The position numbers and the translations under genes were made by a program. A DNA stretch of 64,000 nt from Alkalidesulfovibrio alkalitolerans DSM 16529 (lineage in GTDB: Bacteria > Desulfobacterota > Desulfovibrionia > Desulfovibrionales > Desulfovibrionaceae): contig NZ_ATHI01000022.1 in the NCBI RefSeq assembly GCF_000422245.1, positions 1 through 64,000 on the forward strand. The letters run 5' to 3'. Under the pieces are notes generated by a model. It did not search any database and had not been told where the DNA came from. It saw only the letters and a list, made by a program, of their open reading frames with translations. This document shows positions 11,022 through 31,291 of the stretch, piece by piece; positions within the stretch are counted from its first letter, which is position 1, and each line of letters begins with the position of its first letter.

Positions 11022-13201
11022 AGCGCGTTTACTATGCCGGACCCAAGTTCTCCGCAGGCCGACTGCTCACCCCGGCCGGTGAGGAAGTCCAGTTCGCGGG
11101 CAATTTGTTCGCCCGGGAAAATCAGCCTGTGGTCCTGCTCGGGTCGTGGTCCACCCATCCCAAATACGGCCGTCAGTTCAAGGTCGACGGGATGGAGCAC
11201 GACCTCGAACTCGATCCGGAAGGGCTGATCCACTATCTGGCCAACCATCCGGAGATCAAGGGCATTGGTCCGGCCAAGGCCAGATTGATCGTCGAGAGTT
11301 TCGGCGACGCCTTTGAAGAAACCCTTTTGAGTGACCCTGAGCGCATCGCCCTCAAAGCCCGGCTGCCCCTGGATGCAGCCAAGCGGCTGCATGACGAATG
11401 GTTGAAGAACCGCAGCGTCAACACCGTCATGGCCTGGCTTTCGGCATTCGGCCTGACCCATCATCAGGTCACCACCCTGGTCGAAAGACTCGGCGGCAAT
11501 TGCCTCGATATTCTGAAAGAAGACCCGTACATCCTCATTCGGGAGATCCGGGGATTCGGCTTCAAGAAGGTCGACAAGATCGCCCGCAAGCTGGGAACCC
11601 CAAAGGACCACGTTCCCCGTATCCGGGCCGGTCTGCTGTTTTGCGTCCGTGATGCCCTGGACAATGGCCACTGCTGGATCGAATACGAGGATCTGGTGGA
11701 TCAGGCCAATCTGCTGCTGGTCATGGATGCCCTGGACAGCCGGGTCCGCATCGAGAGCGCCCTCGACGCTCTCATCGAAGAACAGGCGCTTTCCTGCGAT
11801 TCCCACGGTGGACGTTTCGTGGTCGCTCTGCCGGAGATCGTCCGCATGGAGCGGGAGCTGGCCTTGTTGTTCGGCCAGGCCGAAACACCGAATCCTCATT
11901 TCCAGTCCGTCAAGAAACTCGATGCCCTGATTCGGCGCTGCGCATCAACGCTGAACGAGAAGCAGCTCGACGCGGTCCGCTCGGCCCTCCAATACAGCAT
12001 CAGCCTGATTTCGGGTGGAGCCGGTTCGGGGAAGAGCTACACCATTTCAGTCATCAACACCATCTGCGAGGAGAGCGATCTGGAGGTCGTGCTCGCCGCG
12101 CCGACCGGCAAGGCCGCCAAACGCCTGGAGGAAGTCAGCGGCCGTAGCGGCACCACCATCCACCGCCTGCTCGGCTATGACGGCAAGGGTTTCTCGCGCA
12201 GCAAGGAGAACCCCATCGATGCCGACGTCCTGGTGGTCGACGAGTTTTCGATGGTCGACGTGCCGCTGGCCTGGCACCTGTTCGAGGCGGTCGATTTGTC
12301 GCGGACCACGGTGCTGCTGGTCGGGGACCACAACCAGCTTCCGCCGGTGGGACCCGGAAACATCCTGCGCGATCTGATCCAGACACGCGCCATCCCCACG
12401 GTCATCCTCGACAAGGTCGTGCGCCAGGCTGGCGTCCTCAAGGAGAACTGCACCGCCGTTCTCAAGGGCGAGGTGCGCAAGACCAGCGAGGCGTCGGTGG
12501 CCGGATGCCGGGATTGGTACCTGGTGGATCAGTTCACAGATCCGATGGCTGCACGCTCGTTCCTGCTGGAGCTGTTTCAGGAGCGGCTCGACGCCCTGGG
12601 TTTCGACATCATCAAGGACGTGCAGGTGCTGACGCCGACCCACAAGGGGCCGCTCGGCACCAAGGAACTGAACGAGGAGCTGCAGCGGCTCATCCAGCGC
12701 AAGCTCTGGAACACCGAGGTGCCGCCGGTCGCCATGGGCCGCCGCGCCCCGTTTCTCAAGCACGACAAGGTCATCCAGACCCGGAACAACTACGACCTGA
12801 ACGTGATGAACGGTGCCATCGGCTATGTGGTCGATGTCCTCGCGAACGGCACCCTGGTCATCGACTTCGACGGCATGCCCGTGGAGATGGAAAAGGGTTC
12901 GCCCGACCTTCAGGACCTGCAGCTCGCCTATGCGCTCACCATCCACAAAACCCAGGGGTCCGAATTCCCCTGCGCCGTGGTGGTGGTCCACAAGGCGCAT
13001 TCCTTCATGCACCACCGTAATCTGCTCTACACCGGGGTGACCCGCGCCCGGCGCACCGCCATTGTCCTGGGCGACCATTGGGGCATCCAGAATTGCGCCA
13101 AGCGTTGCCAGGTGGATGACCGTCGGACCTTTCTGCCCCTGTTTCTGGACGCCGCCCAGCACGCGGAGGCCGATTTCGCCCGTGTCGCGGAGGCCGAATG
13201 A
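10973..13201 (+). CDS. RecD2-like superfamily 1 DNA helicase
   Basis: 742 aa from the ATG at 10973 (GGAGG 8 nt upstream). An N-terminal OB-like domain (residues 5-75) is followed by HhH-rich helices (HPEIKGIGPAKARLIVESFG, then IREIRGFGFKKVDKIA), as in RecD2/TraA-type helicases. Walker A is near residue 350 (GGAGSGKSY), Walker B near 420 (VVDEFSM), motif III is GDHNQLPPVG, and the C-terminal motifs include ALTIHKTQGSEF and YTGVTRAR. It should unwind DNA 5'-3' and is expected to work with the nucleases of this operon. The start lies inside the ERCC4 gene and the stop overlaps the primase start. Confidence 0.92.
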   Translation: MPKRNESNPARLRGRIERVYYAGPKFSAGRLLTPAGEEVQFAGNLFARENQPVVLLGSWSTHPKYGRQFKVDGMEHDLELDPEGLIHYLANHPEIKGIGPAKARLIVESFGDAFEETLLSDPERIALKARLPLDAAKRLHDEWLKNRSVNTVMAWLSAFGLTHHQVTTLVERLGGNCLDILKEDPYILIREIRGFGFKKVDKIARKLGTPKDHVPRIRAGLLFCVRDALDNGHCWIEYEDLVDQANLLLVMDALDSRVRIESALDALIEEQALSCDSHGGRFVVALPEIVRMERELALLFGQAETPNPHFQSVKKLDALIRRCASTLNEKQLDAVRSALQYSISLISGGAGSGKSYTISVINTICEESDLEVVLAAPTGKAAKRLEEVSGRSGTTIHRLLGYDGKGFSRSKENPIDADVLVVDEFSMVDVPLAWHLFEAVDLSRTTVLLVGDHNQLPPVGPGNILRDLIQTRAIPTVILDKVVRQAGVLKENCTAVLKGEVRKTSEASVAGCRDWYLVDQFTDPMAARSFLLELFQERLDALGFDIIKDVQVLTPTHKGPLGTKELNEELQRLIQRKLWNTEVPPVAMGRRAPFLKHDKVIQTRNNYDLNVMNGAIGYVVDVLANGTLVIDFDGMPVEMEKGSPDLQDLQLAYALTIHKTQGSEFPCAVVVVHKAHSFMHHRNLLYTGVTRARRTAIVLGDHWGIQNCAKRCQVDDRRTFLPLFLDAAQHAEADFARVAEAE

Positions 13202-16200
13202 GTATGGGCGGAACGGATAACGTCAGGGAGTATTACCGGCACGTCACCGAGATGGACATCGGTGACGTGGCCCGGGAACTCCTGCCGGGACGGATCACCC
13301 AGGAGACCGGCCAGCGCTTGATGTGCGACTGCCCCAACCATCAGAGCCAGTCGCGTCTGTCGCTGCACGTGATGCTCGACAAGCAGGGCTGGTACTGCTT
13401 CGGCTGCGGAGTCGGCGGTGATGTGCTGCAGCTCGTTGAGTTCATTCAGACGGGCTCGGTCACCGCCGGGCAATCCGGTCCGATGCCGGACAGCCACCGT
13501 CAGGCCCGGGACTATCTCGCCAAGAAGGCGGGCTTGCCGCCGCTGTCGCGCTATGGCCTCAGCCAGGAGCGTCTCGCCCAGACGGAGGCCGACCGCGCCT
13601 TCGAACTGCGGGTCAAGGACGCGCTGACCTCGCTGGCCAGGCTTTACCACGCCAGACTCAAAGAGTCGCCGGAGGTCCTCGACTGGCTGAAATCCAAATA
13701 CGCCCTGAGCGAGGAGACCATCGACGATCTCCTGATCGGCTACGCGGACAACGCGTCCGGCGCGGTCGCCCAACTGACCGGGGGTGAGGACGGTTTCTCC
13801 AAGCGGGAGCTCGCCGCCACCGGCGCTTTCCGTCCCACCAGCCAGGACGGCCTGACGCCATTTTTCGAGCGCCGCATCGTCTTTCCCTACTGGAGCCGTG
13901 GCCGGGTGGTGTTCATGATCGGCCGCAAGACGCCGTGGACCCCGGACGTTGGCTGGGAGCAAGGGAAATACAAGAAACTGCCGGTTCACGACGAACACCA
14001 ACGGCCTTACGTCGCCGACTTCATCAACAACGCGCTGCTGTTCAACGAGGACTGCCTGCTGGCGAGGCCCGGCAAGGTGATCATCACCGAGGGGGTGACC
14101 GATTGCTTGGCGCTGATGCAACTGGGCCTGCCCACCGTATCGCCGGTCACCGTCCGCATCCGGGCCGCCGATTGGGAGCGCCTGATCCCCAAACTGCGCG
14201 GCGTCGAAACCGTCTACATCTGCCAGGACAACGAACTCTCCCAGGCCGGTCTCAAAGGGGCGCTGCAAACCGCTCGTACCCTGGCCGAACACAAGATCGA
14301 CACCCGCCTGGTGACGCTGCCTTTGTCGGAAACACAGATCTCGGCCCGGCAGGAGCTGACCGAACGCTTCGGCCTGACGGCGAGCGTGGGGCCGAAGGAG
14401 CTGGCCAAGCTACTGGCGGGACGTCCCGCCGAGGAAATCCAGGCGGCCGAGGCGCTTCTCGCCATCGCCAAGATCGACGTCAACGATTACATTGCCGCCG
14501 GGCATACCCTGGAGGATTTCGAACGCCTGCTCGCCGAGGCCAGCACGCCCATCGAGTTCGGCGTGCGCTCGCTGCCCGAGGGCGCTGAAGAGGAAGAACG
14601 CAACCGCCTGCTCGAACCTATCCTGGGGGAGATTTCCGAGCAGTCTCCGCTGGAACAGGCCCGTCTGCTGAAGCTGGTGCAGGAGCGCATCGGCGGTGGT
14701 GTTTCGATGGCCACCCTCAAAGAGCAGATCCGCGCCATCCAGAAGGACCGTAAAGTCGAGTTCCGCAACGAAAAGAAGAAGGCCAAGCGGATGTCCGGCG
14801 CGATGCCCGGATCGTGCCGCGCCCGGGTCGACGAGGTGCTGATCGACACGGAACTGGAGAACGGTGCTCCCGACTACACCCTGGCCGCCGAGGCTGCCTA
14901 CGACTGGTTCAACGCCAACGGTGCCCAGTTCTTTCACACCCTGCAGGGCGAGCCGTTCATGTATTTCGACAACGCCATCTACTGGATGGATTCACCGGAC
15001 CGGGGCCGCAAGCGCCATTACGCGGCCATGCTCTACAAGCACACGGGTATGGTGCCGACCACGGGCGGCGGACGGACATTTTTCGAGGTGCTGCCCAGCC
15101 TGGCCATGATCCGTGGCCAGGTGCGCGACCATTTTTCCTGGCTGCACACCGATGTGGCCTCCTACACCGTCTATTTCAACCTGAACAATCCGGAGCACGA
15201 GATCGCCAAGATCACCCCGGACGAGATTCAGATCATGAAGAACGGCGGCAACGAGGACGGCATCATCCTGGACGGCTCGCGCAAGATGAAGCCGCTGAAA
15301 TTCCTGCCCGACGCCGACCTCGAAGAGGCGGACCGGCTCCTGGTCGATCTGCTGGTGGGCAATATGACCTGTCCGCAGGGGGATCGATTTCTCATCCTTT
15401 CCTGGCTCTCCTGTTTCCTGCTGATCGACTTCGCCGGGACGCGGCCCATGACCCGCTTCGAGGGTTCGGCCGGATCGGGCAAGACCACCGCCAGCAAGAT
15501 CACGTCGACGCTGCTTTACGGCGAGCCCCAGCACAAGAAAGCCACCGACGCGGCGAACTACACCGATGGCTCGCAGAACCCGCTCATCGTCCTCGACAAC
15601 ATCGAGGTCAAGCAGATGACCGAGGATCTGACCACCTTCATGCTGACCAGCATCACCGGCATCGCCAAGGAGAAACGCAAGAGCGGCACAGACAGCGAGA
15701 CCATCACCGAGCGGACCAAATGCCTGCTGAACACCACCGGCATCGAGCCGCTGTGCGGGGAGCTTTCGGAGATACTGTCGAGGTCCTTCGTCATCAACTT
15801 CGACCTCGCCAACCAGGCCAGCGACTGCTTTCTGGAATCGGAGGTCATCTCCGCCATCCAGCAGAACCGGGATCTGATCATCTCGGCCATCATGAAGCGG
15901 ACCAGCCATGTGCTGGCGATGATCCGGGACGGAGCCCAGAAACAGGTCATGCGCCTGCTGCACCGAACCATGCCGACCCATGGCAAGCGCCGGTGCAACG
16001 ATTATCTGAGCCTGATGTACCTGATGATGCTGGCCGGGTCCGAGGAACACGAAGTGACCACCGGACTCGAGGAGCTGAGCCCGCTGTTCATCGAGCAGAT
16101 TCATTCCATCAACGACACCAGTCAGGAGATGGCGCGGGAGTCGAACCCCATTGCCACGGCGCTGGCGTCGCTTTTCCATGCCTACCGGAACGCGGTGGAG

Positions 16201-16512
16201 CTGGACGAGAAGGCCCGCTACGGCGAGGACGACCGGGCAAACCACGTAGTGGGGTTCATCGAACGCTACCAGGTGAGGTTCGAGAACGAGAACACCATGG
16301 AGCCAGTGTCAGCGGGACGGCTGCTCGCGGCGCTGCGCAGGGTCGGCCGGGAATTCAACCTCGAGTTCGAATACAAGAAGCCCGCCCAGCTCGGTCGGCG
16401 CATCAGCAACGACCTGGACGTCATCCGGGACGCCGGTTTCGACATCGACCGGCAGCGCAACGCCCACACCAAGAACTTCGAGTATTGGATCAGCGCGAAC
16501 AGGGGGAAATGA
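13198..16512 (+). CDS. Primase-helicase: CHC2 zinc finger, TOPRIM and ATPase domains
   Basis: 1104 aa. The CHC2-type zinc finger (CDCPNH ... WYCFGCGVGGDV, about residues 43-72) is followed by a TOPRIM core (VIITEGVTDCLALMQLGLP, about 294-320) and a long linker. A C-terminal ATPase has Walker A GSAGSGKTT near residue 757 and LIVLDNIE as a probable Walker B. It should synthesise primers and drive fork unwinding at the phage origin, and is the main replication protein here. The start overlaps the helicase stop (ATGA). The gene ends 15 bp before the convergent toxin gene. Confidence 0.88.
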   Translation: MSMGGTDNVREYYRHVTEMDIGDVARELLPGRITQETGQRLMCDCPNHQSQSRLSLHVMLDKQGWYCFGCGVGGDVLQLVEFIQTGSVTAGQSGPMPDSHRQARDYLAKKAGLPPLSRYGLSQERLAQTEADRAFELRVKDALTSLARLYHARLKESPEVLDWLKSKYALSEETIDDLLIGYADNASGAVAQLTGGEDGFSKRELAATGAFRPTSQDGLTPFFERRIVFPYWSRGRVVFMIGRKTPWTPDVGWEQGKYKKLPVHDEHQRPYVADFINNALLFNEDCLLARPGKVIITEGVTDCLALMQLGLPTVSPVTVRIRAADWERLIPKLRGVETVYICQDNELSQAGLKGALQTARTLAEHKIDTRLVTLPLSETQISARQELTERFGLTASVGPKELAKLLAGRPAEEIQAAEALLAIAKIDVNDYIAAGHTLEDFERLLAEASTPIEFGVRSLPEGAEEEERNRLLEPILGEISEQSPLEQARLLKLVQERIGGGVSMATLKEQIRAIQKDRKVEFRNEKKKAKRMSGAMPGSCRARVDEVLIDTELENGAPDYTLAAEAAYDWFNANGAQFFHTLQGEPFMYFDNAIYWMDSPDRGRKRHYAAMLYKHTGMVPTTGGGRTFFEVLPSLAMIRGQVRDHFSWLHTDVASYTVYFNLNNPEHEIAKITPDEIQIMKNGGNEDGIILDGSRKMKPLKFLPDADLEEADRLLVDLLVGNMTCPQGDRFLILSWLSCFLLIDFAGTRPMTRFEGSAGSGKTTASKITSTLLYGEPQHKKATDAANYTDGSQNPLIVLDNIEVKQMTEDLTTFMLTSITGIAKEKRKSGTDSETITERTKCLLNTTGIEPLCGELSEILSRSFVINFDLANQASDCFLESEVISAIQQNRDLIISAIMKRTSHVLAMIRDGAQKQVMRLLHRTMPTHGKRRCNDYLSLMYLMMLAGSEEHEVTTGLEELSPLFIEQIHSINDTSQEMARESNPIATALASLFHAYRNAVELDEKARYGEDDRANHVVGFIERYQVRFENENTMEPVSAGRLLAALRRVGREFNLEFEYKKPAQLGRRISNDLDVIRDAGFDIDRQRNAHTKNFEYWISANRGK

Positions 16513-16527
16513 AGGAGAACTGGAGAG

Positions 16528-16854
16528 TTATGCCTGTAATAGACGACGTTGCAGCAAGGTCTGCATATCACGGCGGCCGTCGGCAATCACCATGACATAA
16601 ACATTTTCGGCCATGACGCGATAGATGATGCGGTAGGGTTTGAAAAATATCTCACGGTACTCGCGAAGCCCTATGGCCAGCAGTTCTTTTGGATAGGCTC
16701 CTCGCTCCGGGTTCTCGGAGAGGCTCGAAAAGGCCTTCTCTATTTCATCGAGAACGTAATCCGCTTTTCCCGGCGCGTCGTGGGATGCAATGTAGTCGTA
16801 CAACTCCTCCAAATCCCGCGACGCATCATCGGTCAGAAATATCTGGAAGGTCAT
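16528..16854 (-). CDS. RelE/ParE-family toxin
   Basis: 108 aa, typical ParE length. It begins FQIFLTDDASRDLEELYDYIAS, carries NPERG near residue 53, and has REIFFKPYRIIYRV leading to VYVMVIADGRRD, the conserved ParE/RelE core. ParE toxins poison gyrase; RelE toxins cut mRNA. The sequence looks closer to ParE, but I would not choose firmly. The start overlaps the antitoxin stop (TGATG). The pair faces the replication operon and probably stabilises the element. Confidence 0.88.
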   Translation of the reverse strand: MTFQIFLTDDASRDLEELYDYIASHDAPGKADYVLDEIEKAFSSLSENPERGAYPKELLAIGLREYREIFFKPYRIIYRVMAENVYVMVIADGRRDMQTLLQRRLLQA

Positions 16855-17129
16855 CAGCGACTCTTGCTCCGGTCGCGAAGCCGCTGGATGACATCACCGG
16901 CGGGCTGGACTTTGCCTTCCTCGATCTGACGCGAGCCGAGCGCGAGGATCTTCAGAAGGGCCATGGTCTCCTGGGTCTGCTCATAGCTTTCGATGTCCTG
17001 CATCACGACCTTGGCTTCGCCATTCTGAGTGATGACCAGGGGTTCACCTTGCCCGGACATGTTGCGCACGATTTCTGCGGCATGGGCTTTCAGGTAACTG
17101 ATCGGTTTGATTTGGCTCGATAGCTTCAT
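16854..17129 (-). CDS. Phd/YefM-family antitoxin
   Basis: 91 aa from the ATG at 17129, which has GGAGG 6 nt upstream. The N-terminal fold-and-bind region (IKPISYLKAHAAEIVRNMSGQGEPLVITQNGEAKVVMQDI) is the classic Phd/YefM DNA-binding domain. The Lys/Arg-rich C-terminus should wrap the toxin. It likely represses its own promoter, as is usual for the family. Confidence 0.9.
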   Translation of the reverse strand: MKLSSQIKPISYLKAHAAEIVRNMSGQGEPLVITQNGEAKVVMQDIESYEQTQETMALLKILALGSRQIEEGKVQPAGDVIQRLRDRSKSR

Positions 17130-17153
17130 ATCCATCCTCCTTTGTATGACCAA

Positions 17154-17182
17154 ATATAGTCCGAAAACAGGTCAACTGTCAA
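17154..17182 (-). promoter_or_regulatory. Toxin-antitoxin promoter
   Basis: On the minus strand TTGACA (plus 17177-17182) and CTATAT (plus 17154-17159) are 17 bp apart, 25 bp before the antitoxin start. The fit to a host sigma-70 promoter is good and contrasts with the phage box elements. Confidence 0.7.
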
Positions 17183-17255
17183 TCTGAAACGCTCCGAGTC
17201 GCCACCGTGGTGGCTTGGAAAATCATCCAGGACGCTCTCGGGCGTCCTTTTCTTT

Positions 17256-17608
17256 TGCGGTGGTGCGGTGATCACCGCTGTCTCTTGCGGTGGATGACCA
17301 CCGCACGCCAAACCCTTGCCAGACAAGGAGTTTATGGCCTTTGCGGTGGATGCGGTGGTAAATCCAGAGGTCTCACCCCCTATGGGCTGAAATATTTTTT
17401 CGACCCACCGATCCGGCATTCCTCGGCAGAGAAATTTCGGCCAAGCGTGAGAGACATTCCCCAAATACCACCGCAACCACCGCACTCTCTCTTCTCTTTC
17501 TTCATAACTATCTAAAAACAAATAACAAACAAAGAACTACCCCCCTGCGGTGGGACAAGAAAATCTTCCACCGCACGACCACCGCAGCCACCGCACATAT
17601 CCACCGCA
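17256..17608. other. Iteron cluster, candidate phage origin of replication
   Basis: The 8-mer TGCGGTGG or its complement CCACCGCA occurs 12 times exactly: 17256, 17286, 17342, 17351 and 17546 on plus; 17298, 17468, 17477, 17568, 17579, 17588 and 17601 on minus. There is also a near copy (17264) inside the palindrome GCGGTGATCACCGC (17265-17278). Two more exact copies lie in the next gene (17858, 17867). An AT-rich patch (17498-17540) sits between clusters, and A-rich direct repeats follow at 17643-17692. Placement right after the primase-helicase fits an origin. An operator array is the main alternative. The gap 17130-17779 holds no credible gene. Confidence 0.6.
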
Positions 17609-17707
17609 GAACCTGCCAGTTTCTCGAAAAACGTTTAGAGACCTCAAAAAACAGTTACAAAACGGCCTCTCGCTCAAAAAAACGATTACAAGCGAAGGCA
17701 TCGGTCC

Positions 17708-17740
17708 GCCGTCATCTGGCTTTGGGTTCCGGTAAGTAAC
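17708..17740 (+). promoter_or_regulatory. Phage promoter-like box 2
   Basis: GCCGTC-N14-TCCGGTAAGTAAC, ending 39 bp before the ATG at 17780. It keeps the 14-bp spacing of the other copies, with two changes in the upstream block. It lies at the downstream edge of the iteron region. Confidence 0.7.
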
Positions 17741-17779
17741 GGGAAAAGCGATTAACCCGTATTTCTGGAGCGTGAAGCC

Positions 17780-18550
17780 ATGAGCCTTCTGAAAACCATG
17801 ATCAAGCACACCGCCGGAGGGCAGGAAGCCTCGGACGGAGGTGAAACCCCATCACTACCACCGCAACCACCGCAGCCCGCCATCTATGTCTCCACCGGGC
17901 TCGACATCCACGACATCGAGGACGCCCGTGATTGGCCTGAAGACAGGGAGATCGACGGCACGCTGTGTCGCCGTCTGTCGCCTGAATACTTTGCCTGGCT
18001 ACGTTCCCGCATGGTCACCGCCCAAGCCGCGCACAAGGCCGGAAAACTCCCCGAGGATGCCTGGAATACGCTGCGGCAGCGATTCAACGCCCTGCAGGAG
18101 CTGGCCATCCGGGAATTCGGCAAGGAAAGCCTCCAGGAGGTCCTGCAGTCCTTTTCCCCGAAGAACTACCGGCCACCCGCGCTTCGTCCCGAGCCCCAGG
18201 AGAAACCCGTCGAAGCTCCCAGAAAGGACTGGATTTATCCCGGGAACCAAGCTTGGAAATGTAAGCAGCCGGTGACTTCCCAGGCTGTCGCCAAGGTCGA
18301 CGCCATCCGTGAGGAGGCCATGGCCAAGGGCTGGTCCGAGGCACGCCTCTATCAGAACCAGGGCCGGTTCCGGTTTCCCTGCGGCGAGGACTACGGCCTG
18401 CTCTGCTTCGTCGATGGCGATCAGGAGATTGGCGAGGTCACCGAGCGTTCTATCGAAATTATCCACGGGCCGAAGTCCGGGCGTCCCAGCACGCTGCGGT
18501 TCTACAACCCGGACGTGCCGCAGCCGTGGATGAAGAAAGTGGAGGATTGA
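17780..18550 (+). CDS. Hypothetical protein next to the candidate origin
   Basis: 256 aa; GGAG lies 9 nt before the ATG at 17780. A low-complexity N-terminus (TPSLPPQPPQP) is encoded by two iteron copies, so the origin repeats extend into the gene. The middle is helical (ARDWPEDREIDGTLCRRLSPEYFAWLRSRM). A Trp/Arg-rich C-terminal part (YQNQGRFRFPCGEDYGLLCFVDGDQEIGEVTERSIEII) follows. No recognised domain. Its position suggests a replication accessory or iteron-binding protein, on context alone. It is followed after 3 bp by an HTH gene. Confidence 0.6.
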   Translation: MSLLKTMIKHTAGGQEASDGGETPSLPPQPPQPAIYVSTGLDIHDIEDARDWPEDREIDGTLCRRLSPEYFAWLRSRMVTAQAAHKAGKLPEDAWNTLRQRFNALQELAIREFGKESLQEVLQSFSPKNYRPPALRPEPQEKPVEAPRKDWIYPGNQAWKCKQPVTSQAVAKVDAIREEAMAKGWSEARLYQNQGRFRFPCGEDYGLLCFVDGDQEIGEVTERSIEIIHGPKSGRPSTLRFYNPDVPQPWMKKVED

Positions 18551-18553
18551 GCC

Positions 18554-18832
18554 GTGAAGAAAAAGAAACGCTACGCCAACGCCAAGGATGTCCTGCCCGA
18601 GAAACTCTTCGAGCAGATCCAGAAGCACTACACCGGAATTCTCTGGGTCCCTGCACCGAGCCGCTTCTACCAGGAACGCCGTGACCTGGTGCTTGCCCTT
18701 CATCTGCAGGGGATCAGCAGCCAGGAGATCTCCAACCTCGCCGGAGTGACCACCCGCCGGGTCAATCAGATCATCGCCGCCGAACGAAAACAGGATCGGG
18801 ACCGACAGTTGGCCGCCGCTTCCGGTAAGTAA
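18554..18832 (+). CDS. Small helix-turn-helix protein (Mor/CD3324-like)
   Basis: 92 aa, GTG start at 18554 with GGAGG 8 nt upstream. The N-terminus (YANAKDVLPEKLFEQIQKHYTGILWVP) resembles the first segment of CD3324-type and Mor-type proteins. Residues 45-78 (RRDLVLALHLQGISSQEISNLAGVTTRRVNQII) are a clear helix-turn-helix. It probably regulates transcription. The gene's last codons and TAA stop lie within promoter-like box 3, so the gene and the following promoter are fused without spacer. Confidence 0.7.
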   Translation: MKKKKRYANAKDVLPEKLFEQIQKHYTGILWVPAPSRFYQERRDLVLALHLQGISSQEISNLAGVTTRRVNQIIAAERKQDRDRQLAAASGK

Positions 18833-21890: not shown

Positions 21891-22165
21891 AAGAGATCCT
21901 TCAGGAAAACAGCGATGCCGTTCGCCAGGCCGGTGAGGCCCTGGTTGAAATCGGCACCGAACTGGCGGCGGGACGGATCGAGAACGCCCTCGGCCGTCTG
22001 GAAGCGGCTCAGCAGCAGTACCGGGCCTGGGCGGAGTTGGACCAGGCCATCATCGACATTCAGGAGGCTGTCCACGACCGGAAGAACACCCTGGCCGTGC
22101 AGCAGATTCTGACGGAACTGGTGGGCACCATCCTCGGCAGCTCCTTGAGGACGGGAATGCACTGA
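21887..22165 (+). CDS. Small helical hypothetical protein
   Basis: 92 aa, coupled to the lipoprotein (ATGA) and to the large terminase (TGATG). It is almost wholly helical (EILQENSDAVRQAGEALVEIGTELAAGRIENALGRLEAAQQQYRAW), with a more hydrophobic end. No recognised domain. The tight coupling to the terminase suggests a packaging or lysis accessory. Confidence 0.65.
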   Translation: MKEILQENSDAVRQAGEALVEIGTELAAGRIENALGRLEAAQQQYRAWAELDQAIIDIQEAVHDRKNTLAVQQILTELVGTILGSSLRTGMH

Positions 22166-23688
22166 TGGCGGTAACCGACAAGGAGCGCAAACTCGCGGCG
22201 ACCCTGAGCGATCCCGTGTTGTGGGGACAAGCCTACCTCTACAACCGGGATGGCTCGGGCCGCGACTACTGGCCGCACCAGGTGGAGGACCTGCGCTGCC
22301 CGGCCAAGAACATCATCCACCTCGACGGCCGGGACGTGGGCAAGTCCATCGTGCTCTCGACCGACGCGCTCCATTACGCCTTCACCACCCGAGGCGGCCA
22401 GGGCCTCATCGCGGCTCCGCACCAGGGGCACCTCGATACCATCATCGAGGAGATCGAGTTCCAGCTCGACACCAACCCGGATCTGATGAACAGCATCGCT
22501 CTGACCAAGTACGGCAAGCCCAAGATCCACCGCAAACCCTATTTCCGGCTGGAGTTCACCAACGGTTCGGTGCTCTATTTCCGCCCGGCCGGGGCCTATG
22601 GTGACGCCTTTCGGTCCCTGCATGTTGGCCGCGTCTGGGTCGATGAAGGAGCCTGGCTGACCGAACGGGCCTGGAAGGCGCTGCGCCAGTGCCTCAAAGC
22701 CGGGGGGACGCTACGCATCTACTCCACGCCCAACGGCCTGCGCGACACCACCTATTACCGGCTCACCTCGTCGGACCAGTTCCATGTGTTCCGCTGGCCG
22801 TCCTGGCTCAACCCTCTTTGGACCGAGGATCGCGAGGCCGAACTGCTGGAGTTCTACGGCGGCCGCGACAGTTCCGGCTGGCAGCACGAGGTGGCCGGTG
22901 AACACGGCAAGCCTTCCTATGGGGCCTTCAATGTCGAGCAGTTCAACCTCTGTCGGCAGGATCTGCTGGAGTATCAGAAGATCGTCATCACCGATTCCGA
23001 GCTACGCGATTGCGATACCGAGGAAGCGGCCCACGACCGGCTGGAGATGCTGCTCAACCTCACTCCCCGCAGCGGGCAGTTCTGGGTCGGCGGCGACCTG
23101 GGCTACACCAACGACCCCACCGAGATCGTCGTATTTCAGGAGATGGAGGTCGGCGAGCGGACGCTGCTGAAGATGATCCTGCGCGTGCATCTTGAACACG
23201 TTTCCTATCCGCACATCGCTCAGATCATTGCGCTGCTGGAGCGTTACTACACCCCGGCGGGCATCGGCGTGGATAACGGCGGCAACGGTCTGGCGGTGGT
23301 TCAGGAATTGCTCACTCTGGACAAATACAAAGGGCTGGAACTGGAAGGCAGGCTCAAGGGATACGACTTCGGCGGCATGACCCGGCTGGCGGTGCGGGAC
23401 GGCAAGGAAATCAAGAAGCGGACCAAGGAGCTGATGACCAGCCTCATCAACGGAGCCCTGCAGCGTAAGCAGCTCATTTTCCCCTCGGACGACCTGGAGG
23501 TGGAGGACCAGTTCACCACCCACACTTACACACTGCGGGACGGCAAGATCATCTATTCCAAGGGCAACGACCACATCATCGACGCGGTGCGCTGCGCCAT
23601 GCTGATCCGGGAGGAAGGCAACCTCGACCCGGTCGGCGAAGAGGTGGTCTCGCTCAAGCCGGTCCTCACCAATCCGGTCCTCATCTGA
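22165..23688 (+). CDS. terL: Terminase large subunit
   Basis: 507 aa. The ATPase domain has a Walker A-like DGRDVGKSIVLS near residue 54 and Walker B VWVDEGAW near 158. The C-terminal nuclease shows GGDLGYTNDP near 310, GVDNGGNGLAVVQEL near 369 and a late acidic NDHIIDAVRCAML. It pumps DNA into the prohead and cuts concatemers. The last 529 bp (from 23160) are repeated at 29175-29703. Confidence 0.92.
   Translation: MAVTDKERKLAATLSDPVLWGQAYLYNRDGSGRDYWPHQVEDLRCPAKNIIHLDGRDVGKSIVLSTDALHYAFTTRGGQGLIAAPHQGHLDTIIEEIEFQLDTNPDLMNSIALTKYGKPKIHRKPYFRLEFTNGSVLYFRPAGAYGDAFRSLHVGRVWVDEGAWLTERAWKALRQCLKAGGTLRIYSTPNGLRDTTYYRLTSSDQFHVFRWPSWLNPLWTEDREAELLEFYGGRDSSGWQHEVAGEHGKPSYGAFNVEQFNLCRQDLLEYQKIVITDSELRDCDTEEAAHDRLEMLLNLTPRSGQFWVGGDLGYTNDPTEIVVFQEMEVGERTLLKMILRVHLEHVSYPHIAQIIALLERYYTPAGIGVDNGGNGLAVVQELLTLDKYKGLELEGRLKGYDFGGMTRLAVRDGKEIKKRTKELMTSLINGALQRKQLIFPSDDLEVEDQFTTHTYTLRDGKIIYSKGNDHIIDAVRCAMLIREEGNLDPVGEEVVSLKPVLTNPVLI
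23160..23688 (+). repeat. Direct duplication, copy A (terminase 3' end)
   Basis: 529 bp, repeated at 29175-29703 with an offset of 6015 bp. I count 16 mismatches by eye. Nine fall in the first 180 bp and are all synonymous; about 310 bp are identical; seven fall in the last 40 bp. The two copies flank the ABC-transporter cargo. The short gap 23689-23873 beyond it holds an 11-bp direct repeat (ACCCCATCGGG at 23775 and 23847). Confidence 0.95.
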
Positions 23689-23873
23689 CCGCACCACCAT
23701 AACTTGCTGTATCTCAATAGTTTTAACCAAGTTAGGTAGACTCAATCATCCTCTTGGCAGATAAAAGGGGTATAACCCCATCGGGAGTTCGAATATAGAA
23801 AGCCAGTTTGAGAGGGCCGGCTGGCGGTGACAATCATGCCAGCCGGACCCCATCGGGTTAAAGAGTCAAATGG

Positions 23874-24872
23874 TTACTTCGATAAAGCCCCTTTTTTGGC
23901 TTTTTCGGCGATCTTTTTCGTCAGATTTTCGAGACTGGCGGATTCAATTAGCGGCTTGGCCTTGTAGCTGGCCAGCCTGAAGTACTCCGGTCTGTTGGAG
24001 ACCTTGAGAGTGTACTCTTCCTTATCCTTGGCCTTGCCCAGCTGGTAGGTCAGTTTCGCCCCTCCTTTTTGAGTCAGGGTGATCGTCAGAACGGGATCGT
24101 TCAGGCCATATTCCTCTTTTGCCTCTTGCCCCAGGACACGCTCGAAACGCAGCTCCGCCAACAGTCCCGCGAGTTTGTCCGCGGCTTCGACTTTAAGCGC
24201 TTTGCCTTCATCGATGCCCTCGGCCTTCCATGTTGGTTGCGGACTCGATTCATCAGTCGCTTTGTCCTGAACAGTTTCGGCTGAGCTTCGTTGGATACGC
24301 AAGCCACCCACATCGATGGCGGCAATGTCCGATTTCAATAAGGTTAAGATGGATTTATCTTCCCAATCCTCTGCTTTCATCGGGACATCGTAGGCGGCCA
24401 TCTTGACGGCATGGATGGCATCACTCGCTTCATTGCGGGCGTGGATCAGCCGCATGCCGGGCGAACTGCCCAGGTAGAGCCGGGCGAGCGTCTCATCGCC
24501 GCTGGACAAGGTGATACGGCGTTCAAATACCTCGTCACTGACCTTGAAGCGTTCACGGGCGCTACGGCTGGTGGCCACCGGCGCTCCGGAACGCAGGGCT
24601 TTGAGCCGGTCGAAAAGTTGCTTCACTTTGTCGCTGTTGACTGGGAAGTCGGCCACATCCGGCAGCACCCAAGTGCCACCTTCCTTCTCAAGCGTTACTT
24701 TCGCGTCGTCCGGTCCCTCCAGGGTGATGCGATTGACTTTTTCACCATCGAACTCCAGCAGAGAAACGGGTTCGTTGCCGGCGGAAATGCTCCGACCGGT
24801 CAGGCCGACCCCTGCCGCCAGCAGCAATTGTGCAGCGAGCAGAACGGCCAGTATCTTGACTGTTTTTTGCAT
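23874..24872 (-). CDS. DUF4340 protein of the Gld-type ABC system
   Basis: 332 aa. An N-terminal membrane anchor (KTVKILAVLLAAQLLLAAGVGL) is followed by repeated DUF4340-type units (VNRITLEGPDDAKVTLEKEGGTWVLPDVADFPVNSDKVKQLFDRL). DUF4340 proteins are usually the last gene of GldG-type ABC operons and sit in the periplasm beside the transporter. GGAGG lies 8 nt before the ATG. It is encoded against phage transcription as part of the inserted cargo. Confidence 0.88.
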   Translation of the reverse strand: MQKTVKILAVLLAAQLLLAAGVGLTGRSISAGNEPVSLLEFDGEKVNRITLEGPDDAKVTLEKEGGTWVLPDVADFPVNSDKVKQLFDRLKALRSGAPVATSRSARERFKVSDEVFERRITLSSGDETLARLYLGSSPGMRLIHARNEASDAIHAVKMAAYDVPMKAEDWEDKSILTLLKSDIAAIDVGGLRIQRSSAETVQDKATDESSPQPTWKAEGIDEGKALKVEAADKLAGLLAELRFERVLGQEAKEEYGLNDPVLTITLTQKGGAKLTYQLGKAKDKEEYTLKVSNRPEYFRLASYKAKPLIESASLENLTKKIAEKAKKGALSK

Positions 24873-24875
24873 GGT

Positions 24876-25988
24876 TTATACCTCCGCCAACACGGTGTCG
24901 TAATGCTGCTTGTCAGCGGCCGCTACCTTGCGGCGCCAGCCCCACACGGCCAGTAGTCCGAGGACGGCCAGGCCGTAGTTGACCCACTCCCAAATCCGTT
25001 GTTCGCCATCGGGCATGGGGTCGAGGGTGCGCGCCAGTTGCGTTCGTCCCCGCAAGGCCAACAATCCGCGGTCTTCCAGCGACCAGTCGATGGCGTTTTG
25101 CATGAAGGCCAGCGGTTTCGTATACAGGGTATTGAGACCCTGTGAGGCGAGGTCGATGGCGGCGTCAGAAGCGAAGGTGTTGCTCGACACCAGGATCAGC
25201 CGCGCCGATTCCGGCGAGCGCTCGATCACACCCGTGATGCGCTGCTCGGCCTCTTTCTCCTCTTTTTTATCCGCACTTTCACCGTCTGCCTCGCTGTCAT
25301 TGGATGCGTCGTCGCTCTCTTCAACCATGGCCAGGGGCGACTCCTTGTCTTTGTAGAACGAATCGAAGCGCCCTTCGATGGCCACGGCCAGGAGCTGTGA
25401 TTTGCGTTTGCCGCTGACGCTAAAGCCCGTATCCGGGTGGGCGCGGTAATCAGGCACCAGGTTCAGGCTGTCCGAGGTCCAGCTGTTCTCGGAGCTATGC
25501 AGCAGCTCGATCACCTTGCGCTCCTGATTTTTCTCTGTATCCACCTGAATCGGCGAGGCCCAATTCAGGGTGAGCTGACCCAGCGAGGCGGTGATGGGGT
25601 TATCCGGGTTCAGGCTGTCGCCGCGCAAATCCGGGAAGTGGGGATAGGGCAGCATGCGGATCTCCCGCAGGGCCAGGCCGCCGATGTAGCGCTCGGTCGG
25701 AACCGGCAGCGCCGCATTTTGCGGATCGAGCACCATGGTCTCGTGGATGCTGATGCCGTGATGTTCTAACCATTCTTTCAACCCGGAGTCCTGCTTGCTG
25801 GCGTTCAGGCTGCCACTGGTCTGCACGTCGAAGGGCGAGGTGGCGAGCACCACGCTGCCGCCCTGCATCAGGAACTGGTCGATGGCGAAGCGCTGATTTT
25901 CGTCCAGTTCACGCGGCGCCAGCACCAGCAGCAGGTCGGCATCCTCTGGCGCCTGACCGCTCTTCAGATCGCTTTCCTTGATACGCAC
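24876..25988 (-). CDS. GldG-type auxiliary protein, C-terminal part after a frameshift
   Basis: 370 aa in the frame starting at 25988. It holds the end of the GldG-like auxiliary domain (QAPEDADLLLVLAPRELDENQRFAIDQFLMQGGSVVLATSPFDVQTSG), an acidic low-complexity stretch (about residues 218-245) and a C-terminal membrane helix (WVNYGLAVLGLLAVWGW). There is no ribosome site for a separate start. The upstream protein reaches the same point in a frame one base off, so this is most simply the second half of one 960-aa protein. Confidence 0.75.
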   Translation of the reverse strand: MRIKESDLKSGQAPEDADLLLVLAPRELDENQRFAIDQFLMQGGSVVLATSPFDVQTSGSLNASKQDSGLKEWLEHHGISIHETMVLDPQNAALPVPTERYIGGLALREIRMLPYPHFPDLRGDSLNPDNPITASLGQLTLNWASPIQVDTEKNQERKVIELLHSSENSWTSDSLNLVPDYRAHPDTGFSVSGKRKSQLLAVAIEGRFDSFYKDKESPLAMVEESDDASNDSEADGESADKKEEKEAEQRITGVIERSPESARLILVSSNTFASDAAIDLASQGLNTLYTKPLAFMQNAIDWSLEDRGLLALRGRTQLARTLDPMPDGEQRIWEWVNYGLAVLGLLAVWGWRRKVAAADKQHYDTVLAEV

Positions 25989-27772
25989 GTTTCACCCAGC
26001 ACGTCTTCCAGAGCATCATAGCGATGCCCGCCCGGGCCGAAGGCCTGGGGCTTGACCAGGGCGACGGTCTTTAGCGCACCGGGGGTCAGGCGTTGCAGCG
26101 CTGCGTTCAGCGAGCGCTCCAGGGAGCCCTTGTCCAGGGTCTTCGGTAACGGCACCTGCAAGGCTTGGCCGTCGCCCTCCAGCACCATGTAGAACCAGAA
26201 GGGCTTGGGGTCGAACAGGCTGGCGATCTGTGGCCCGAAACCGTACTTCTGCTGGAGCTCGGCGGCGAGCTTGCCGCCGTCGGCATCCGGATCGGCGAAC
26301 TGCACGGTCAGCTTGTCGCCCGCCTGTTTTTTCAACTCGTCGAGCAAGTCCTTGAGATCGCCGCGCAGCTCGCGCAGGGTCTCCGGCAACTGCTCGTCGG
26401 GTGACATATAGCCCTTGAACGCCACCGGGTGTTGCAACGCCTCAAAGGGGTTGCCGCCGGCCCGGTAGCTGCCCGCCACCTTGCGGATGGCCCGGGTAAT
26501 GGCGTACTCTGGATTCTTCAGCGCCACGTCCAGATCCCGTTCGCCGCGCGCTTTCACCTCGATGAGCTCCCGGAATCCTAGGGTTTCATACTGGTCGCCA
26601 TAGGCGATCAACAGGTCGAAGTAGGAGCTGACCACGGCCGTCTGATAACGGTCCGCCGTCTGGAAGGGGACCGGCTTGATGCCATAGCGCGAGGCGGCCT
26701 CTTCTTCGGCCTCACGGTCGCGGGTGGGATCGACGAAATCGACCCGGATGCGGTCACCGCCGGCCACGGCATACTCGTCCAGCAGGTCCTTGATCCGAGG
26801 CACCAGCGGCGCCAGCAGGGGGTGAGTCTTGGCGGAGAAGTAGCCGCGGATCAGCAGGGGCTCCCGCAGGGCCGCGAGCTGGCTCTCGGTGGCCTCGGAG
26901 AGGGAGTACTGCTGGTCTGCGGTGATGTCCGCGCGGGCCCAGCCGATCGGGTTGAGCCAGAGATTGGCGGCTATGAAATTGGCTGCCGCCAGTCCCACGG
27001 CCCAGCCCCACAGCCGGTGTCTGGAGCTGATGGGATTGCCCGCCCAGCGCAGCCGCTCGAGTGAGAACAGATTGAGGGTCAGAAAGACGCCGACGATAGA
27101 GAGATAGTAGTAGAGGTCGCGCAGATCGAGCACGCCGCGGGTAATCGACTCGAAGCGGGTACCGGTGCCGAGCAAGGCGAGCAGACCACCGATCTCATGG
27201 CCGAAAAGAGTGGTCAGGGTGTTTGATCCGATCAGGTAGAAGAGCCCGCTGACCACGGCGGTCAGAATCAGGGCGACGATAGGGTTGTCGGTGCGCCCAC
27301 TCGTATAGAGCCCGATGGCCACGTAGGCCGCGGCCAGAAACAGGGTGGCGATGTAGCCGCCGACCACCGGGCCCCAGTCAAGCGGCCCGAGCAGGGAGAC
27401 CGTGACCGGCAGAGGCAACGTCAGCGCCAGTGCCAGGGCAACCAAGCCCAGGGCCGCAGTGAACTTGCCCAGGATCAGCTCCAGTGGTTTGACCGGTGCG
27501 GTCAGCAGGCTTTCTAGGGTGCCGCTGCGGCGCTCCTCGGACCAGGCGCGCATGGTCAGAGCCGCCACCAGGAAGATCAGCAGTATCGGCATCCACTGAA
27601 ACAGCGGTCGCACATCGGCGATATTGCGGGCGAAGAAGGTCTCCACCCAGAAAAAGACGAACAGCGTCACCGCGAGGAAACCACCGAGGAAGAGATAGGC
27701 GGCCGGTGTGGCGAAGAAGCCACGAAACTCCTTGCGCGCGATACTCGGTATGCTGGAAAAGCGCTCAGCCAT
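25964..27772 (-). CDS. ABC-2 type permease fused to GldG-like domain, truncated by a frameshift
   Basis: 602 aa. Residues 1-250 are an ABC-2 permease with about six membrane helices (AAYLFLGGFLAVTLFVFF, WMPILLIFLVAALTM and others). From about 290 a GldG-like periplasmic domain begins (DQQYSLSEATESQLAALREPLLIRGYFS). Known homologues continue past FGPGGHRYDALEDVLGE into the sequence of the next reading frame. Here a run of three A (plus-strand TTT at 25990-25992) appears where four would keep the frame. Either a real inactivating deletion or a sequencing error. It overlaps the ATPase gene by 8 nt. Confidence 0.85.
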   Translation of the reverse strand: MAERFSSIPSIARKEFRGFFATPAAYLFLGGFLAVTLFVFFWVETFFARNIADVRPLFQWMPILLIFLVAALTMRAWSEERRSGTLESLLTAPVKPLELILGKFTAALGLVALALALTLPLPVTVSLLGPLDWGPVVGGYIATLFLAAAYVAIGLYTSGRTDNPIVALILTAVVSGLFYLIGSNTLTTLFGHEIGGLLALLGTGTRFESITRGVLDLRDLYYYLSIVGVFLTLNLFSLERLRWAGNPISSRHRLWGWAVGLAAANFIAANLWLNPIGWARADITADQQYSLSEATESQLAALREPLLIRGYFSAKTHPLLAPLVPRIKDLLDEYAVAGGDRIRVDFVDPTRDREAEEEAASRYGIKPVPFQTADRYQTAVVSSYFDLLIAYGDQYETLGFRELIEVKARGERDLDVALKNPEYAITRAIRKVAGSYRAGGNPFEALQHPVAFKGYMSPDEQLPETLRELRGDLKDLLDELKKQAGDKLTVQFADPDADGGKLAAELQQKYGFGPQIASLFDPKPFWFYMVLEGDGQALQVPLPKTLDKGSLERSLNAALQRLTPGALKTVALVKPQAFGPGGHRYDALEDVLGETCVSRKAI

Positions 27773-28679
27773 GGCTCACCTCCTCGTTGACCCGGGCGAA
27801 TACCGTTTCCAGATCGTGGCGCTCCGGTGTGATTTCATGCAGAGCAAGTCCCGCATCCATGACAGCTTGAGCCACCCGGGGCGCGCTGCCCGGTTGCGCC
27901 TCCACCCGATAGCGCCTGCGGCCTGCGGCCGCATCCAGCTCGGCGACCTCGGCGACCCCCTCCACTGATTTGAGAGTGGTCTGTGCATCACCGTCGACGG
28001 CCACCAGCAGGGCGTCATCGCGTTGCAGCTCATCGATCCTGGAATCAACTACCAGGCGACCGGCGCGCAGGATAAGCACCCGCTCGCATACCGCCTGGAC
28101 CTCTTGCAGGATGTGGGTGGATACGATGACCGTGGCCGTTTGCGCCAGTTCGCGGATCAGGCCGCGCATCTGGCGGATTTGGGTGGGATCGAGCCCGTTG
28201 GTTGGCTCGTCGAGGATGACGATGTCGGGCTCGTGCAGGATGGCCTGAGCCACACCGACTCGCTGGCGGTAGCCCCGAGACAGGGTCTGAATCGTTGCAG
28301 TGGCCTTCTCCTTCAGTGCCGTGCGGCGGATTGCCCTGACGATAGCACCCTTACGCTGGCCCTCCGCTATGCCGTGCAGGCACGCCTGGTAATCGAGATA
28401 ATCGATGACGGTCATCTCCGGCCAGACCGGACAGTTCTCCGGCAGGTAGCCGATTCTTGACTGGATGGCCGTGGTATCCTGGCCGATACGCCGGCCGTCG
28501 ATGTCGATGGTCCCGGCGGTGGGTTCGAGAAAACCGGTCAGCATTTTCATGATGGTGGTTTTGCCGGCGCCATTGTGACCGAGCAGGCCGACGATTTCAC
28601 CGCGGCCAATACGGAAATTGACATCGTCCACGGCAGTGAAATCGCCATAACAGCGCGTCAGGTTTTCGACCTGAATCAT
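27765..28679 (-). CDS. ABC transporter ATP-binding protein (GldA-like)
   Basis: 304 aa from the ATG at 28679, which has AAGGAG 8 nt upstream. Walker A is GHNGAGKTT, the signature is LSRGYRQRVGVAQAIL, and Walker B is IVILDEPTNGLDP, followed by an H-loop (VSTHIL). The C-terminal regulatory tail is that of ABC-2 type exporters. First gene of the cargo operon with the permease/GldG and DUF4340 genes. In many proteobacteria this trio is chromosomal; its substrate there is unclear. Finding it in a phage late region is unusual. Confidence 0.92.
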   Translation of the reverse strand: MIQVENLTRCYGDFTAVDDVNFRIGRGEIVGLLGHNGAGKTTIMKMLTGFLEPTAGTIDIDGRRIGQDTTAIQSRIGYLPENCPVWPEMTVIDYLDYQACLHGIAEGQRKGAIVRAIRRTALKEKATATIQTLSRGYRQRVGVAQAILHEPDIVILDEPTNGLDPTQIRQMRGLIRELAQTATVIVSTHILQEVQAVCERVLILRAGRLVVDSRIDELQRDDALLVAVDGDAQTTLKSVEGVAEVAELDAAAGRRRYRVEAQPGSAPRVAQAVMDAGLALHEITPERHDLETVFARVNEEVSHG

Positions 28680-29014
28680 GGAAATTTCTCCTTGTTGATA
28701 ACGGATTAGAAAATTGAATGTGTCAGCATCGTCCCGGTGAATGCAATGCGTTCCGATCCGGCCAAGCAAGTGCGACAGCATCTTTGTTTAAAAGCAGGGA
28801 GCTATGGGGGGGGGCGGGCGGTTATACGTCTGGTGGAATTTTCTTTTTCTGCACAGATACATGGTTAATGAGGTTTTTTACATTGGTGTATTTTGGTTAT
28901 AATCCACTTTAATGACAATGTATGATTCGAAAGAATCTTTCCTATCTGAATCTCATAAAATAAAAATACAGAAATGCCTTGTCAACCCATTGTCCCCTGG
29001 GGTCTCCCCATTTT
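28680..29014. other. Gene-free AT-rich segment upstream of the ABC operon
   Basis: No credible gene. A G-run (28807-28817) is followed by the most AT-rich stretch of the region (28840-28975), with TATAAT-like hexamers (near 28898) and a small GATTC-GAAA-GAATC hairpin near 28924. Composition differs sharply from the phage genes on either side, which supports a foreign origin for this block. Confidence 0.5.
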
Positions 29015-29174
29015 TCAGAGACCGATGGGCAGAATTGGTAACCTGAGTTGGCTTTGGAGCCCAGGCGGTTTTCCGCTGCGCAATCGCTCGTAGAAGACGC
29101 TCCGGGCTTCGGCAAAAAGCCTCTGCCATCCCTTGAGCAGGCTGTAGAGTAGAAAACGTGGCCGCTTTCTGTCA
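29015..29174 (-). pseudogene. Truncated ORF fragment at the cargo/duplication junction
   Basis: On the minus strand an open frame of about 52 codons (RFLLYSLLKGWQRLFAEARS, then VFYERLRSGKPPGLQSQ) ends at a TGA (29015-29017). At its 5' end it stops making sense exactly where the terminase duplication begins (29175). It reads like the C-terminal remnant of a mobile-element or chromosomal gene cut by the rearrangement. I cannot name the family. Confidence 0.35.
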
Positions 29175-29703
29175 GACGCTGCTGAAGATGATCCTGCGCG
29201 TGCATCTTGAACACGTTTCCTATCCGCACATCGCCCAGATCATCGCGCTGCTGGAGCGTTACTATACCCCGGCTGGCATCGGCGTGGACAACGGCGGGAA
29301 CGGTCTGGCGGTGGTTCAGGAATTGCTCACCCTGGACAAGTACAAAGGGCTGGAGCTGGAAGGCAGGCTCAAGGGATACGACTTCGGCGGCATGACCCGG
29401 CTGGCGGTGCGGGACGGCAAGGAAATCAAGAAGCGGACCAAGGAGCTGATGACCAGCCTCATCAACGGAGCCCTGCAGCGTAAGCAGCTCATTTTCCCCT
29501 CGGACGACCTGGAGGTGGAGGACCAGTTCACCACCCACACTTACACACTGCGGGACGGCAAGATCATCTATTCCAAGGGCAACGACCACATCATCGACGC
29601 GGTGCGCTGCGCCATGCTGATCCGGGAGGAAGGCAACCTCGACCCGGTCGGCGAAGAGGTGGTCTCACTCAAGCCGGTGCTCACCAACCCGATTTTTATC
29701 TGA
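29175..29703 (+). pseudogene. Terminase large subunit 3' fragment (duplication copy B)
   Basis: Contains only the terminase nuclease C-terminus (from TLLKMILRVHLEHVSYPHI to the stop), without ATPase domain or a convincing start; a GTG at 29158 precedes it but lacks a ribosome site. It is 97 percent identical to 23160-23688. The coding differences are Val-Leu to Ile-Phe near the end, and all early differences are silent, so its source was a working terminase. It cannot work as a terminase on its own. Confidence 0.9.
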
Positions 29704-29787
29704 ACCAGACAAATCGTTACCAGTTTTGTGGAAGTGGCAACAATAGGTCTGATGCCCGAGGGCCAGGGAATGGCCGTGGCTTGGATG

Positions 29788-31098: not shown

Positions 31099-31223
31099 CG
31101 CGAAAACCTCCGGCTATCAATTTTTCCGGTCAATATAACAACCGGAAATAATTATTGCCAGTTTAGGCTTGAAATGGCAAGGAAAATTTCTGGTTTCGAC
31201 CTCGGCCGCCTCAATGCAGTCTG

Positions 31224-31267
31224 ATGCAAAACCTCTTTACTTCTTCTCAAATGAAGAGGTTTTGCAT
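31224..31267. repeat. 14-bp perfect inverted repeat (hairpin) before promoter box 4
   Basis: ATGCAAAACCTCTT (31224-31237) and AAGAGGTTTTGCAT (31254-31267) with a 16-nt loop. It lies between the divergent ATPase gene and promoter box 4. It could be a terminator insulating the late operon or the end of an inserted element; there is no T-tract right after the stem. Confidence 0.6.
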
Positions 31268-31291
31268 ATTGACCACCCGCCAAACTCATCC

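Follow-up and report, generated by a model that had tools for sequence, protein, structure and literature searches.

A clustered octamer array 3′ of a primase-helicase gene is the probable replication origin of a contractile-tailed prophage

The octamer array and its layout in relatives

The window analyzed here is a 64-kb stretch of Alkalidesulfovibrio alkalitolerans DSM 16529 (contig NZ_ATHI01000022.1, positions 1 to 64,000), and it carries an array of short repeats (iterons) located 3′ of the gene for a primase-helicase of 1104 residues (13198–16512, plus strand). Sixteen exact copies of the octamer TGCGGTGG/CCACCGCA are present in the window, 14 of which lie within 17256–17874. Twelve of these occupy 353 bp (17256–17608) in both orientations, and the other two are found at 17858–17874, inside the next gene; the first-pass annotation had reported the same counts, and they match exactly. 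Dinucleotide shuffling of the window (100 shuffles) gave a mean of 3.9 octamer copies and a maximum of 10, compared with the 16 observed. When the region 17100–17760 was shuffled 500 times, the best clustered 8-mer reached at most three copies, compared with 12. No other place in the window has any 8-mer at six or more copies per 450 bp. The octamer is not evenly spread over the genome either: the whole 3.2 Mb contains 100 copies, with 14 in the 619-bp stretch 17256–17874 and the others scattered. A genome-wide scan revealed no head-to-tail octamer pairs outside the array, and within the window only two isolated octamers were found elsewhere, with no second iteron cluster. The array is confirmed as a real feature.

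The iterons are arranged in two sets around a central spacer. The left set (17256–17358) has five exact copies in the orientations + + − + +, with an inner pair at 17342–17358, and the right set (17468–17608) has seven exact copies in the orientations − − + − − − −, with an inner pair at 17468–17484 and an AT-rich stretch at 17500–17540. The 109-bp spacer (17359–17467) contains a ATATTTTTTCG tract and an imperfect inverted repeat and is a candidate melting region. The two extra iterons at 17858–17874 are on the minus strand, at the start of the gene for a protein of 256 residues (17780–18550, plus strand), and are also present in the CCACCGCA clade. A 19-bp duplication, previously placed at 17467 and 17857, is real, and each copy starts one base earlier (17466–17484 and 17856–17874).

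Two other elements had been proposed as parts of the origin. The 14-bp palindrome GCGGTGATCACCGC is present at 17265–17278, but relatives have GCGGTGAACACCGC or one more exact iteron at this position, and it is therefore read as an iteron that has decayed and not as a conserved element. The A-rich repeats also exist, as three 14-mers of the AAAAAACGATTACA type (17626–17690, plus strand). They were compared in the window and in the relatives L012, L015, and L049 (L numbers denote related loci). The segment that holds them, about 90 bp long, is missing from many close relatives, and the repeats were rejected as an origin element, the segment being both optional and movable. Some CCACCGCA phages have it to the right of the array, and many CTTTCTAC phages to the left.

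Primases up to 99% identical to that of the window occur in Desulfobacterota, Gammaproteobacteria, and other groups, including isolates and one complete chromosome, and related primases are also found in viral contigs as well as in genomes from the same family, order, and phylum as the window. Among 69 distinct primases that could be read through the C terminus, 61 have an array in the initial flanking DNA. For the other eight, an array appeared in a longer flank in five cases, two have no downstream sequence, and the remaining one, L037, has an array that is degenerate as judged by eye, the sole such case. In all loci with enough downstream sequence, the array lies 30–3000 bp 3′ of the primase gene, inserted cargo accounting for the longer distances. 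The expectation that related phages would have the array at the same place was thus borne out, and the comparison strongly supports the proposal of an iteron origin 3′ of the primase-helicase gene.

The common layout consists of outer copies, an inner pair, a spacer, an oppositely pointing inner pair, and again outer copies. In the listed relatives, the spacer between the inner pairs measures 98–128 bp and has A/T tracts, often with an imperfect inverted repeat of varying sequence. Most iteron positions in the window's clade are common to within a few bases. The octamer itself differs by lineage (CCACCGCA, CTTTCTAC, CTTTCGGC, CTTTCGGT, CTTTCACC, CCTTCGCA, CCTTCTCA, CCTTCCCA, CCTCCGCA, CACCCGCC), and a change affects nearly all copies at once, with positions and orientations kept. 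A search of 50,697 phage records revealed no close relative of this myophage family. In these records of cultured phages, tblastn with the primase matched its N-terminal third only (best matches at about 25% identity), and blastn with the array region gave no match; a viral scan with L037 gave none either.

Iteron classes and the C terminus of the primase-helicase

The primase-helicase has Pfam and PHROG matches, including a full-length match to phrog_47, and is proposed to be a self-loading initiator. It contains a CHC2 zinc finger, a DnaG-type N-terminal core, a Toprim domain (a match below its curated cut-off), a P-loop GSAGSGKTT (spotted by eye in the translation), and a predicted C-terminal winged helix. 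An AlphaFold2 model of residues 983–1104, built on 28 C-terminal sequences, has a mean predicted local distance difference test score of 90. Helices at 1039–1052 and 1062–1071 are followed by strands at 1081–1087 and 1094–1100, and because this helix-helix-hairpin order is typical of winged helices, the domain is predicted to be one. The predicted recognition helix (residues 1062–1071, 16381–16410, plus strand) lies within PAQLGRRISND, which is replaced by SxxQFAQR in iteron classes of the YTTY type. The predicted wing is a β-hairpin (residues 1081–1100, 16438–16497, plus strand), the variable residues of which track the 3′ half of the iteron. The residues that define the classes sit in the turn of the predicted hairpin.

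Comparison of the window with L012, L182, L013, and L166 shows a natural exchange of this region. Nucleotide identity is about 95% up to ~15.8 kb and again over 17.95–23.69 kb, and the DNA between is replaced. The swapped cassette of ~2.2 kb runs from the last ~250 residues of the primase-helicase through cargo and array to ~58 codons into the neighboring gene, so that it includes the two iterons at 17858–17874, and the swap takes the iteron from CCACCGCA to CTTTCGGC or CTTTCTAC. The C-terminal 245 residues of the primase-helicase (15775–16509, plus strand) form the segment that is replaced when the iteron class changes. Against L012, L013, and L014, the identity per 50-residue block is ~92–100% before about residue 850 and 36–80% thereafter.

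Near-identical pairs of phages are the strongest evidence. The wing residues N-H-R or K-R-Y at positions 1087–1089 pair with CTTTCGGC or CTTTCTAC, respectively. In a tight clade of the swapped type, comprising L012, L014, and L182 (GGC) and L013, L166, L045, and L046 (TAC), the only consistent differences between the two classes are residues 1087–1089 and the last three residues; when all six GGC proteins are set against all 16 TAC proteins, the columns without any common residue are 1087, 1089, and 1099 alone. The primases of L019 (iteron CTTTCACC) and L029 (iteron CCTTCTCA) are 97% identical, and their differences, which include a three-residue insertion, are concentrated in the wing and the tail. 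Furthermore, L164, on a longer branch, combines the core of the CCTTCGCA group with the C terminus and iteron of the CTTTCGGC group.

The same association is seen over a set of 57 proteins in nine iteron classes. The partial correlation between local divergence and iteron difference, a statistic that removes phylogeny only in part, peaks at 0.715 for residues 1075–1102, compared with a protein median of −0.17. Mapping the iteron classes onto trees requires nine changes on the C-terminal tree, where the minimum is eight, and 15 on the tree of the core (residues 1–850), the latter count being approximate because the core tree is poorly resolved among members that are 95–99% identical.

Helices of the PAQLG(R/K)R type accompany CCACC or CACCC, and SxxQFAQR helices accompany 5′ iteron halves of the YTTY type, with CCTCCGCA in L023 as a partial exception. 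Distant relatives (L071–L119) that have mainly the N-terminal primase half in common, with another C-terminal half, also have arrays. The pattern recurs in their WTQ...REWRYR group, where wings with FNAG, FNAR, FKCG, YKAR, and FYAR occur with ACTGGAACAC, ACTGGAACC, ACTGGGACAC, CGTGGACC, and CGTGCACC, respectively. In the distant relatives L076, L077, L083, L094, L101–L107, L110, and L111, the array and the primase open frame overlap in the 3′ part of the latter. The array there reads as VPT/IPT-like repeats and, if that frame is used, would lie inside coding sequence.

In the loci compared, the array is present in a conserved architecture, and its iteron classes follow the wing of the primase and not the neighboring protein. 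The likely reader of the array is the C-terminal winged helix of the primase-helicase, rather than the product of the 256-residue gene.

Cargo, neighboring genes, and prophage context

The interval between the primase gene and the array (16513–17255) is a cargo site, which was compared across L006–L059. The window has a toxin-antitoxin pair here, identified with Pfam, consisting of a ParE-type toxin (16528–16854, minus strand) and a Phd/YefM-type antitoxin (16854–17153, minus strand); relatives have other genes or none. An AbiLi/AbiLii-like pair is present in L007, with similar proteins in L008, L043, and L049. Inspection by eye suggested Fic-like (L013, L045), AbiEii-like (L029), ABC-F-like (L006), and GNAT-like (L057) cargo, and the site is empty in L011, L021, and others.

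A replication and recombination module lies near the array and encodes an exonuclease, a Sak4-like annealing protein, a DUF669 single-strand binding protein, an ERCC4 nuclease, a RecD2-like helicase, and the primase-helicase. As this module precedes terminase, portal, head, sheath, tape measure, and baseplate genes, the element is read as the genome of a contractile-tailed phage. A hairpin containing GGTAAGTAA (17724–17775, plus strand) is conserved directly upstream of the 256-residue gene. It is kept across many iteron classes, its stem sequences vary among relatives, and the region has no Rfam match.

Further downstream, ~7.6 kb of the window (23694–31286) are not found in L012, L182, L166, and L011. 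This extra segment holds an ABC transport operon and an AAA/DUF4143 gene, as well as a second copy of the 3′ end of the terminase gene of ~529 bp (29175–29703). Within Desulfobacterota, L007 (Desulfocarbo) and L011 (a complete Desulfosarcina chromosome) carry phage DNA that is ~95–97% identical to the window over long stretches, and the primase of L010 (the isolate Ectothiorhodospira shaposhnikovii DSM 243) is 99% identical. These identities point to recent spread across phyla.

Seven genomes or contigs contain two such elements. The iterons differ in five pairs, one of which was judged from the C-terminal sequence alone, and are shared in two. Pairs thus differ about as often as expected from random pairing, and prophage incompatibility as the force driving iteron divergence is unsupported.

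A phage origin read by its primase-helicase

Very probably, an integrated temperate contractile-tailed phage has its replication origin at 17256–17608, perhaps reaching as far as 17874, with the octamers bound by the C-terminal winged helix of the primase-helicase. The primase-helicase would bind each octamer through this domain, the recognition helix reading the 5′ half and the wing hairpin the 3′ half, and would assemble on the two inverted iteron sets. The assembly may then melt the central spacer or the flanking AT-rich stretch, after which the helicase ring would be loaded and synthesis primed without a host initiator. We infer binding, melting, loading, and the direction of replication; for iteron binding and assembly the models are SaPI Rep and SCCmec Cch2 (PMC7581432) and P4 alpha (PMC4234260).

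Several points weigh against this interpretation. It rests on comparative evidence throughout. The region is inherited as one cassette, and linkage could add to the association of wing and iteron; the pairs L012/L013 and L019/L029, which have few differences, argue against mere linkage. The extreme C-terminal tail also differs between iteron classes. A PDB sequence search with the primase C terminus returned chance-level matches only, and a Foldseek search of two C-terminal models against the PDB gave nothing significant, so that the winged helix is a prediction from the model. GC skew, suggested earlier as a check, has the same sign on either side of the array and lends no support to an origin, although for a prophage that is integrated such a test carries little weight.

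Among other explanations, the array could be an operator or silencer through which the primase C terminus or another protein of the cassette regulates transcription, with replication starting elsewhere. A conserved leader hairpin does follow the array and two iterons lie inside the next gene, but a spacer between two sets of opposite orientation, located 3′ of a primase-helicase gene, reproduces the published origin layout of the phage-inducible chromosomal islands (PICIs) (PMC6092414). We regard an operator in place of an origin as very improbable, though the array may serve both purposes.

The array might instead be the binding site of the 256-residue protein, which the first-pass annotation had named as candidate initiator. 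In every complete locus its gene comes after the array, and the swapped cassette takes in the first 58 codons of this gene. However, residues 59–256 are 91–94% identical between the window and swapped phages of different iteron, and the otherwise variable residues 1–58 are 97% identical in L019 and L029 despite their differing iterons. This makes the protein an unlikely reader, and it has no Pfam or PHROG match. The proposal is very probably wrong. The iteron is tracked instead by the tip of the primase-helicase winged helix. A packaging (pac) site read by the small terminase is scarcely plausible: a 92-residue helix-turn-helix protein (18554–18832) and the large terminase (22165–23688) are encoded downstream, but 17.95–23.69 kb is ~95% identical between phages of different octamers, and the octamer thus changes without a matching change in any downstream gene.

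The origin proposed here, read by the primase-helicase, has the layout described for the staphylococcal pathogenicity islands (SaPIs) and PICIs. In a PICI origin, an AT-rich region lies between two iteron sets, 3′ of the gene for the initiator; the authors of that work saw this organization in no other bacterial replicon known (PMC6092414). The C-terminal domain of SaPI Rep recognizes the iterons (PMC7581432, citing Ubeda 2007). As in the pri-rep-ori arrangement, the origin follows directly 3′ of the primase/initiator gene, and in the iteron classes examined, left and right sets surround a center of 98–128 bp with A/T tracts. A C-terminal iteron specificity is suggested here by strong covariation and natural swaps. 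Unlike these islands, the element is not a satellite but a full phage, as its terminase, portal, sheath, tape measure, and baseplate genes show, and cargo lies between initiator and origin. In addition, its initiator is of the DnaG type, with a CHC2 zinc finger and Toprim, whereas SaPIbov1 and SaPI5 have archaeo-eukaryotic primases (PMC7581432).

The proposed initiation resembles that by phage P4 alpha, which combines a Toprim primase and a helicase in one protein and binds the origin repeats with its winged helix (PMC4234260, citing Ziegelin & Lanka 1995, Yeo 2002). The candidate initiator here has Toprim/DnaG and P-loop regions and an AlphaFold2-predicted C-terminal winged helix. However, searches with its putative binding domain matched no solved structure, either by sequence or significantly by fold, and the window has no second iteron cluster like crr. 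The PLE satellites of Vibrio cholerae exchange the origin and the DNA-binding domain of the initiator (RepA) together as a module (PMC8263062), and here too origin and putative binding domain swap as one cassette. PLE, however, has a RepA_N initiator and semi-palindromic iterons of ~30 bp, and selection there comes from the origin-directed nuclease Odn. In geminiviruses, iteron position and pattern are conserved while the sequence diversifies between close relatives (PMC12548392), as is the case here, but these are single-stranded DNA plant viruses with rolling-circle replication and an unrelated Rep protein. Rep_3 plasmid origins have long direct repeats in one orientation, unlike the octamers in both orientations here, and no Rep_3 match was found among the genes scanned next to the array.

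New here are the PICI-type origin layout in this myophage family and an apparent recognition code; no description of the wing-iteron correspondence was found in the open-licence literature. On balance, we favor a modular code in which the recognition helix would specify the first (5′) half of the iteron, and a small number of residues in the wing its 3′ half. Nearly all of the 10 or so origin copies would be replaced in concert with a domain change, by the same logic in two groups of primases that differ in their C-terminal halves, and the specificity would move as a 2-kb cassette between genomes otherwise ~95% identical. How an initiator and a dozen dispersed sites change specificity jointly without loss of replication is an open question. 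The near-isogenic natural pairs reduce it to three residues in a single protein and two bases that recur ~10 times, and recognition thereby becomes testable with short proteins and oligonucleotides. If the code is true, the wing of an initiator would allow the origin sequence of an uncultured phage to be predicted, and orthogonal origins would be possible. The PICI origin organization in a complete myophage widens its known range and suggests that a phage family of bacteria from different phyla has a self-contained module for replication.
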